From Verrucomicrobiales bacterium (GTDB lineage Bacteria > Verrucomicrobiota > Verrucomicrobiia > Verrucomicrobiales > DEV007), in NCBI GenBank assembly GCA_030730365.1, contig JANQVJ010000079.1, positions 15,151 to 52,850 of the forward strand: a DNA stretch of 37,700 nt. Direction: 5' to 3'. Positions 34,952 through 36,460 of the stretch are shown here, piece after piece. Below the pieces are notes generated by a model. It was not told where the DNA came from and ran no database searches. It was given only the letters and a program-made list of their open reading frames with translations. The position numbers and the translations under genes are program-made. The stretch's first letter is position 1, and each line of letters begins with the position of its first letter.

Positions 34952-34956
34952 TCTTT

Positions 34957-34984
34957 TCTGACTTCTAACTTCTGACTTCTAACT
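34957..34984 (+). repeat. Perfect pair of 14-bp tandem repeats before nuoI
   Basis: TCTGACTTCTAACT occurs twice in direct tandem (34957-34970 and 34971-34984), starting 5 bp after the nuoH stop and ending 10 bp before the nuoI ATG. Its reverse complement matches the left inverted repeat of the four-helix-bundle unit at 25 of 31 positions. Confidence 0.9.
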
Positions 34985-34994
34985 TCTTCCCCAA

Positions 34995-35525
34995 ATGGCC
35001 ATCATCGTCCAACGTCCAAAACTGAAGTGGTGGGAACACCTCTACCTTCCCGGGATCATCACGGGAATGCGGGTGACGCTCGGCCACTTCTTCAGCATCC
35101 TCTCGGGCCGCACCAAAGTCACGATGCAGTATCCCGAGGAAAAGTGGGACAGCCATCTGCCCGAACACTACCGCGGCGCCCCCGCCCTCGTCACCGACGA
35201 GCACGGTCGCGAGCGTTGCGTCGCCTGCCAGCTCTGTGAGTTCATCTGTCCTCCCCGCGCCATCACGATCAAGCCCGAGGAAATCCCGAGCGATGACAAG
35301 TGGGCCAAAGTCGAGAAGCGTCCCCGCGCTTTCGACATCGACATGATCCGCTGCATCTACTGCGGACTCTGCGAAGAAGTCTGCCCCGAACAGGCTATCT
35401 ACCTCCGCAAAGACTATGCCATCACCGGCCTCAGCCGCGCCGAAATGGTTCACGACAAAACGAAGCTTTACGAAATCGGCGGCGTCCGCGAAGGACTCGT
35501 GAACAAGTGGAACGAGTTAAAGTAG
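34995..35525 (+). CDS. nuoI: NADH-quinone oxidoreductase subunit I
   Basis: The TYKY-type ferredoxin subunit with clusters N6a and N6b, linking NuoG to NuoB. The 176-aa protein has two full 4Fe-4S motifs: RCVACQLCEFICPPRAI (about residues 73-90) and RCIYCGLCEEVCPEQAI (about 118-134). An amphipathic N-terminal helix (MRVTLGHFFSILSG) would lie on the membrane. It is followed by the inserted four-helix-bundle unit instead of directly by nuoJ. Confidence 0.97.
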   Translation: MAIIVQRPKLKWWEHLYLPGIITGMRVTLGHFFSILSGRTKVTMQYPEEKWDSHLPEHYRGAPALVTDEHGRERCVACQLCEFICPPRAITIKPEEIPSDDKWAKVEKRPRAFDIDMIRCIYCGLCEEVCPEQAIYLRKDYAITGLSRAEMVHDKTKLYEIGGVREGLVNKWNELK

Positions 35526-35530
35526 GGAAC

Positions 35531-35563
35531 AGGAGTTAGAAGCTGGAATTTAGGAGTCAGAAT
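35531..35563 (+). repeat. Left inverted repeat of the four-helix-bundle unit
   Basis: 33 bp beginning AGGAGTTAGAAGCTGG, 5 bp after the nuoI stop. It contains a degenerate pair of 14-bp units (8 of 14 match) and ends 2 bp before the TTG start of the gene. Confidence 0.8.
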
Positions 35564-35565
35564 AT

Positions 35566-35925
35566 TTGAAACCTGCAAAGTCATTCGAAGATTTAATAGT
35601 ATGGCAGAAGGCACATCAACTGACTCTTGCTGTATATGGATTGACGAAGGAATTTCCTCGAGACGAGATCTACGGGCTGAGTTCACAGATGCGCCGGGCC
35701 GCAGTATCGATTCCATCAAACATCGCCGAGGGTTTCCAGCGCAGTGGAATTCGAGACAAAATCAAATTTTACAATATCTCACAGGGTTCTCTGGAGGAAC
35801 TGCGTTATCAATTGATCCTCACACGCGACCTGAACTACGCGGACACTTCTTCAGCAAGCCTATTGGCCACCGAGGTAGCCAAACTAACAAACGCTTACAT
35901 TCGGAGCCTTCATTCCAACTCCTAG
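35566..35925 (+). CDS. Four-helix-bundle protein (S23 / 23S rRNA IVP family)
   Basis: A 119-aa all-helical protein of the TIGR02436-type family first seen in 23S rRNA intervening sequences and related to the Avd accessory protein of diversity-generating retroelements. Signature pieces are SFEDLIVWQKAHQL (residues 6-19), SSQMRRAAVSIPSNIAEGFQR (39-59) and GSLEELRYQLILTRDL (74-89). The bundle probably forms a basic pentamer-like or oligomeric nucleic-acid binder, as for Avd; its function here is unknown. The start is TTG, and the last five codons lie in the right inverted repeat. There is no rRNA nearby. GC content is visibly lower than in the nuo genes, consistent with transfer. Confidence 0.92.
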   Translation: MKPAKSFEDLIVWQKAHQLTLAVYGLTKEFPRDEIYGLSSQMRRAAVSIPSNIAEGFQRSGIRDKIKFYNISQGSLEELRYQLILTRDLNYADTSSASLLATEVAKLTNAYIRSLHSNS

Positions 35926-35944
35926 CTCCCAGCTTCTAGCTCCT
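35912..35944 (-). repeat. Right inverted repeat of the four-helix-bundle unit
   Basis: 33 bp that pair with 35531-35563 when inverted. Read on the minus strand it is two 14-bp units, GGAGCTAGAAGCTG and GGAGCTAGGAGTTG, 12 of 14 identical. It overlaps the end of the gene and stops 6 bp before nuoJ. Confidence 0.8.
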
Positions 35945-35950
35945 CCTGCC

Positions 35951-36460
35951 ATGTCTTTCCTCTTCTACCTTTTCTCAGCGCTCGCCCTCATGGGCGGGAT
36001 CGGCGTGGTCGTGAACCGCAACCCGGTCTCGGCGGCCTTTTCGATGATCATCTCTTTCCTCGGGCTGGCGGCGCTTTTTATCCAGCTCGATGCCTTTCTC
36101 GTCGGCATCCTTCAGATTCTGGTCTATGCCGGGGCGATCATGGTCCTCTTCCTTTTCATCATCATGCTCCTCGATGTGCGCGAGGAGGAAAAACGCCGCC
36201 GTCCCCTCATTAACATCATCGGTGCCGGCGGGGTCATCGTCGGTTTCATCGCCCTCGTCATCTCGGTGCTCTCCCGGAGCGACGTCGGAAAAGCCACCAT
36301 TCCAGCACTCACCGAAGTCGAAGGTCCGGGCACCTCCGATGTCCATCATATTGGTGAACTCCTTTTCAGCACCTACTGGTTCCCCGTCCAAATCGTGGCG
36401 GTCCTCATTCTCGTCGCCACCGTCGGGGTGGTCGTGTTGAGCAAAAAGGAACTGAAGTGA
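35951..36460 (+). CDS. nuoJ: NADH-quinone oxidoreductase subunit J
   Basis: The ND6-type membrane subunit, 169 aa with five hydrophobic helices. The family core is clear: [24 protein letters not shown] (about 22-45), [28 protein letters not shown] (about 48-75, including the pi-bulge helix glycine) and a final helix [22 protein letters not shown]. It follows the right inverted repeat by 6 bp, so its translation start lies immediately downstream of the inserted unit. Confidence 0.96.

Follow-up and report, generated by a model that had tools for sequence, protein, structure and literature searches.

An IVP/S23 gene framed by inverted heptad arrays between nuoI and nuoJ, a likely resident copy of a mobile cassette

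To our knowledge, neither the S23/IVP proteins, which are annotated as "four helix bundle protein", nor intergenic heptad repeats have been given a clear function so far. In cyanobacteria, the STRRs are intergenic tandem heptad repeats. In the 23S rRNA IVS of Coxiella, a terminal stem of 28 bp has been described along with an S23p ORF whose start is preceded by tandem GACAGAT heptamers, and the same source mentions a mobile-element theory for the IVS ORF, credited to Ralph and McClelland 1993 (PMC4990558). In REPIN/RAYT systems, a single protein gene is accompanied by inverted short repeats of its own; a genome can have several flavours, each next to its own repeat, and gene-less doublets occur elsewhere (PMC3116915).

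Heptads are also known from other bacteria. TAACTGA heptads in Beggiatoaceae are intergenic and tandem, and most of them lie just before start codons (PMC4679880); the heptads GGGAATC in Xanthomonas and GGGGA(T/C)T in Nostoc have been described with generally no association between heptads and mobile elements (PMC4692102). The relevant passages of these two papers name no IVP partner for the Beggiatoaceae, Xanthomonas or Nostoc heptads; furthermore, the term S23 is absent from both texts, and "four helix" is absent from that of PMC4679880. In a survey of rare CRISPR systems, the legend of one figure gives IVP as a domain (PMC10910872), and two four-helix-bundle genes were reported as strain-specific in Arthrospira (PMC8700078). 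Among the titles and opening abstract lines listed for the open-licence literature, no report that ties IVP genes outside rRNA to heptad arrays was found.

The framed gene in the nuo operon

The window, i.e., the whole stretch of 37,700 nucleotides that was analysed, carries an IVP gene between nuoI and nuoJ, where the following features were delimited:

34956..34987, minus strand: solo heptad array (TTCTGAC/TTCTAAC on the plus strand), without an IVP gene, at the nuoH-nuoI junction
34995..35525, plus strand: nuoI, upstream neighbour, open frame (name by reading)
35531..35563, plus strand: left arm, an array of 7-nt words of type RGRAGYY, from the inverted repeat, the heptad scan, and the lag-7 periodicity in the IVP flanks of relatives
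35566..35925, plus strand: IVP/S23 four-helix-bundle gene, 119 aa, TTG start, from the PF05635 match and the AlphaFold2 model
35912..35944, minus strand: right arm, the left-arm word inverted, over the last 14 nt of the IVP gene, from the inverted repeat and the heptad scan
35951..36460, plus strand: nuoJ, downstream neighbour, open frame (name by reading), starting 6 nt past the right arm

In the profile search, the gene product matched PF05635 (23S_rRNA_IVP) with an E of 5e-37 and 126.8 bits, against a curated cut-off of 33.8, and the inverted-repeat search gave arms of 33 nt each that are 82% complementary. These results agree with the first-pass annotation, which had placed an S23/IVP gene within 33-nt inverted repeats at this junction, the right repeat running over the last codons. 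Both arms are period-7 arrays, and their word type is common to the solo array at nuoH-nuoI. The absence of a transposase and of an rRNA context, also claimed earlier, was confirmed, since the ORFs between nuoI and nuoJ include neither a transposase or other recognised catalytic gene nor a reverse transcriptase, and the window has no rRNA match at the Rfam threshold, its sole Rfam match being a tRNA at 38-124. Likewise, neither neighbouring gene is broken, the frames at 34995-35525 and 35951-36460 being open on both sides. An anti-phage defence gene was considered and rejected, as the PADLOC profiles match 0 families for the window protein.

The AlphaFold2 model of the window IVP (pLDDT 96.3) has four helices, in line with the four-helix bundle proposed from the sequence. 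Its closest folds are 2gsc (XCC0516 of Xanthomonas campestris; TM 0.90), 2rld (TM 0.80), and Avd, 4dwl (TM 0.75), and it also matches the DGR RNP 8ube/8ub7. Over 63 IVP sequences, no variation was seen at Q41, R44, S48, N52, or E78 and almost none at E55, G56, and S75; these residues map to helices 2 and 3 of the model, where they could serve nucleic-acid binding or catalysis. Two IVP structure entries have five chains each in the structure listing, and Avd forms a five-fold ring.

Framed genes and their words in relatives

Among the matches listed, which are a part of the whole, PF05635 was present in 42 of 56 genomes, own included. A set of 63 loci (three from the own genome and 60 from the genus or family) was made up of the better-scoring listed matches, mostly away from contig ends, and 36 further genus loci, with weaker matches or near contig ends, were used only in the arm-score and cognate-array counts. 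When left flanks were aligned with reverse-complemented right flanks, the 63 loci gave a same-locus median of 20 against an other-locus median of 9, and 55 of them were above the 95th percentile of other-locus pairs; an arm score of at least 16 was reached by 19 of the 36 weaker or contig-edge loci. Flank autocorrelation peaked at lags 7, 14, and 21, with values of 0.39, 0.36, and 0.33 on the left and 0.40, 0.39, and 0.36 on the right, against 0.24-0.31 at other lags, and was flat inside the IVP gene.

Moreover, the same architecture was found in a distant set, obtained by scanning the genome collection with an alignment of 9 sequences. The best 80 of the 577 relatives, whose record titles point to roughly a dozen or more phyla, had a same-locus flank median of 19 versus 8 between loci, with 51 of the 80 above the 95th percentile, 57 of the 80 at an arm score of at least 16, and a period of 7/14/21 in both flanks and none in the gene. 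Strong arms (score 16) were absent in 23 of these 80 best-listed relatives, 11 of the 23 being Acidobacteria. A negative control on nuoI flanks was not clean: the 95th percentile (11) was exceeded by 7 of 24, with medians of 9 versus 8, an excess that we read as solo arrays in the same operon. In a shift control, a score of at least 16 was reached at the gene by 54 of the 79 and 45 of the 58 loci that were usable, and by 0-1 loci when the windows were moved 200-600 bp outward. The earlier description of a minimal element with its own termini is upheld as regards the framed gene, an architecture common to most of the IVP genes tested, and has to be amended as regards the termini, which are locus-specific tandem arrays and not a fixed terminal repeat.

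For the Mantel tests of words against proteins, only loci with an arm score of at least 16 were kept in the global set (57 of 80) and in the own, genus, and family set (48 of 63), and 6 of 10 plasmid loci, hand-picked without a score cut, were added, giving a total of 111 loci. Their arms have a median length of 33 nt, and the best period among 6-9 was 7 in 77 of the 111, some strong arms not being of period 7. Across the non-orthologous junctions of the 48 own, genus, and family loci, word similarity was correlated with IVP identity (Spearman 0.195, p 0.001), one of the pairs taken as non-orthologous, L001-L085, being really the same junction and missed by the crude orthology test. With pairs of different phylum labels only, the 111 loci gave a Spearman of 0.350 against -0.075 for the reverse-complement control (p 0.002, 500 permutations), the labels being taken from record titles, so that some of these pairs may share a phylum (Balneola/Bacteroidetes; two Patescibacteria labels). 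After proteins were collapsed at 70% identity (86 loci), the correlation was 0.324 (control -0.094, p 0.001), and the word of the nearest protein neighbour had a mean percentile rank of 0.79.

Single junctions illustrate this correspondence. At the pheS-pheT-type junction, two IVP lineages about 30% identical were identified, TTAGCTG words being present with one and GATATTG words with the other, whereas one and the same word is found with related IVPs at different junctions; TTTCAAG words accompany IVPs that are 63-66% identical. The word type of the window recurs with relatives in Verrucomicrobiales (L184), in Acidobacteria (L203), and on cyanobacterial plasmids, the plasmid relatives having the same inner end, AGGAGTCAGAAT. 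The link is loose: other words accompany some relatives that share 59-61% identity with the window protein (L185 and L196). In brief, both the array-framed architecture and the correspondence of word and protein are well supported by the sequence comparisons, and the latter makes the function of IVP and of the heptads directly testable, with one protein and one predicted word.

In one IVP left array (L309:1-110; G007:C70), the word was seen to switch from GATCTTG to GGCGTTG within the array. Separately, inverted repeats also frame the GxxExxY genes (PF13366, PDDEXK_3) of the genus, at G000:C21:14553-14903 (L278, L042) and L264-L293. Their flanks had a same-locus median of 21 versus 8, with 20 of the 28 usable loci (of 30) above the 95th percentile; by eye, the arms often have a period of about 10, e.g., ATTCGCGGCC, and a lag-10 peak was present in the right flank only (0.34; left 0.27).

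Mobile cassettes, dispersed arrays and alternative readings

IVP relatives were detected on 36 plasmid records; in the phage collection, no match of the window protein was found, and a phage origin was rejected. The first plasmid site lies in the tra operon of conjugative plasmids. It is filled in three records and empty in six, the flanks of the latter being 97.5-98.1% identical to those of the former, and comparison base by base with three of the six empty records gave the target duplication GTAAT. The second site has the 5-bp target duplication TTCTA. Such a duplication was readable at two of the six plasmid sites with an empty relative, sites 3-6 being diverged or replacement-like. In other plasmids, the junction of the first site holds a decayed IVP (Nostoc) or a gene-less hairpin (Brasilonema), the latter possibly showing a longer repeat of about 7 nt. 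In Nostoc N6, a gene-less hairpin of ~180 bp with the cognate word lies inside the IVP gene, with no target duplication at this hairpin, and 43 plasmid records contain sequence resembling the hairpin stretch, at 103 places in all. IVP cassettes were also identified in CRISPR operons, namely at cas10-cmr3 (L168), which has an empty relative in Picosynechococcus PCC 7002, and at cas6-cas4 (L170). An IVP gene that lies in a cas, tra or nuo operon may have no part in that system and be a hitch-hiking cassette instead. For plasmid relatives, mobility is shown by the filled and empty sites, and insertion as a unit is shown for those on cyanobacterial plasmids only.

Two more IVP genes are present in the own genome, at a pheS-pheT-like (L002) and a gyrB-gyrA-like junction (L003), both named by reading; in each case the neighbouring genes are co-directional and the inverted heptad arms are different ones. 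A search of this genome for three window-type words in a row, with at most one mismatch, gave 45 hits versus one for the reversed control pattern. By reading, these hits fall in nine places besides the IVP arms, two weaker single hits having been set aside, and the termini singled out by the first-pass annotation do have other copies in the genome. Five of the nine places are contig ends in (AGGAGCT)n arrays (the starts of C18, C23, and C39, and both ends of C56), so that arrays probably break the assembly and are therefore undercounted; heptad arrays may explain breaks in some assemblies.

Occurrences of four words taken from IVP flanks were tallied in 33 genomes. These words were matched to the flanks at 99 IVP loci, where a flank counted as cognate if it lay within 4 mismatches of three words, and array hits in IVP flanks were removed by hand. 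Of the 17 genome-word cases with a cognate IVP, 12 had arrays outside IVP flanks, and of the 115 lacking one, 17 did; some of these 115 may be wrongly classed because weak IVP matches beyond those listed were left out. A stratified permutation gave an expectation of 4.0 and a p of 1e-5. Taken singly over the 33 genomes, the words GATCTTG (p 0.0006) and GTGCTTG (p 0.014) stand, and GTAAAAG (p 0.11) and AGGAGCT (p 0.34) are weak. Chimeric solo arrays, in which a left-type array of one word is directly followed by a right-type array of another, were observed at L041 (pgk-tpiA-like), L038, and the nuoH-nuoI junction of L137.

From the framed architecture, the word-protein correlation, the present/absent sites, the gene-less copies, and the solo arrays, we consider it likely that the window locus is a resident copy of a mobile IVP element, whose four-helix protein would recognise its own heptad word strand-specifically. 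In such a cassette, a single small gene is enclosed by arrays of a 7-nt word in inverted orientation. Since the median arm corresponds to about five heptads, we speculate that the protein binds as a ring of subunits, probably with about one heptad per subunit, and such binding would bring the ends to an enzyme encoded outside the cassette. Cassettes, as well as gene-less hairpins of the same word, would insert between genes, as a rule without breaking them.

A possible but rather unlikely alternative is that IVP acts at the RNA level, binding heptad arrays in mRNA leaders or between operon genes as a regulon in which the cassettes are the autoregulated copy. Such a role would suit the several arrays located directly before start codons inside operons, as well as the plasmid loci, in 9 of 10 of which IVP and its two annotated neighbours point the same way (by longest ORF, too crude a method, both neighbours are on the IVP strand in 32 of 63 loci), and a post-transcriptional role has been proposed for the TAACTGA heptads of Beggiatoaceae (MacGregor 2015; PMC4679880). 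However, cassettes and gene-less hairpins act as inserted DNA, one hairpin being inside an IVP gene, and the arm mismatches do not favour the G.U pairs of a sense RNA. Over 52 loci, 50 wobbles were of the sense type versus 82 of the antisense type (12 versus 21 by locus), a lean opposite to that of a selected sense RNA stem, and a stem in the sense transcript is not supported as the selected feature.

It is improbable that the arrays are simply slippage-prone intergenic repeats, with IVP genes as passive passengers carried by recombination between them, as this predicts neither the cross-phylum correlation of word and IVP nor the target duplications. Nevertheless, arrays do expand in tandem, many of them have no IVP gene, and the cassette of the Nostoc plasmids is more alike (98.3% identical) than its flanks (90.2% and 93.3%), as recombination at arrays would give.

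The history of the nuoI-nuoJ junction bears on a further reading, in which the gene is a vertically kept host gene whose repeats arose locally. NuoI was found in 30 of 33 genus genomes, and 27 loci, own included, extend to nuoJ; G019, outside the 27, has an IVP fragment at its contig end. An IVP gene is present at 4 of these 27 junctions (G000, G032, G022, and G026), arrays without a gene at 11 (ten with both arms and G015 with one, classed by eye), a short or empty gap of -4 to 55 bp at 11, and other sequence at one (G016), and the filled, array-only, and empty states are interleaved on the NuoI/NuoH tree. Empty relatives, which the first-pass annotation had proposed to look for, therefore exist, and the gene is far from being at this junction in all relatives. 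Vertical keeping fits the pair G000/G032, which share the junction gene at a DNA identity of 78.3%, near the 77.5% of nuoJ, and whose codon-position identities of 0.89/0.92/0.54 indicate that the window copy is old and its protein under purifying selection. For G022 and G026, whose IVPs are only 54-55% identical to the window IVP and have other words, deep orthology with word drift is possible. For the family as a whole, vertical keeping is contradicted by the present/absent sites, and we regard it as highly improbable. The earlier view that the gene travels as a unit is borne out for relatives on cyanobacterial plasmids only, the window copy being an old and settled one. Finally, a chance origin of the inverted repeat is negligible, since the local-alignment score of the window arms (21) was the maximum of 20000 window samples of the same geometry and was attained by five of them (the sampled range takes in the locus itself), and since framed genes recur in relatives with the shift control.

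Comparison with known systems

A broader proposal may be put forward, which we hold tentatively and with less than even confidence. IVP/S23 proteins would be the missing partners of bacterial heptad repeats, forming mobile cassettes spread over at least a dozen phyla, where a ring-forming protein would read a lineage-specific word and would move or copy arrays without a conventional transposase. The 23S rRNA IVS and the cyanobacterial STRR would then be two faces of one element, and GxxExxY (PF13366, nuclease fold) would behave likewise with words of about 10 nt. Apart from this proposal, the framed relatives in many phyla and the present/absent sites point to a widespread mobile element, which may explain the long-orphaned heptad repeats of bacteria.

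With heptanucleotide STRRs, the arrays described here share tandem 7-nt repeats between genes. The Avd protein of diversity-generating retroelements resembles the window IVP in its fold and by a weak match to the bAvd profile; however, identity is about 12%, and the profile match, at 23.2 bits, is below the cut-off of 40. Unlike a classical insertion sequence or MITE, the cassette has no transposase, its termini are word arrays, and a target duplication is readable at only two of six plasmid sites.

The 23S rRNA IVS, e.g., of Coxiella and Leptospira, is similar in having one IVP gene within terminal inverted repeats over ~0.4 kb, whereas the window cassette lies between protein genes, outside any 23S rRNA gene. 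Furthermore, IVP cassettes differ from the IVS in their heptad-array arms, whose word tracks the protein lineage, and in the gene-less and solo copies dispersed in the genome. The REPIN/RAYT systems share with them a protein paired with its own repeat type, here by correlation, and dispersed gene-less repeat pairs. Yet IVP is a four-helix bundle and not a Y1 tyrosine transposase (IS200/IS605-like), its repeats take the form of tandem 7-nt arrays, and two sites have a 5-bp target duplication. On our best reading, the IVP cassette would be related to the 23S rRNA IVS and would work in the manner of REP/RAYT systems, REPIN/RAYT offering the closest logic.
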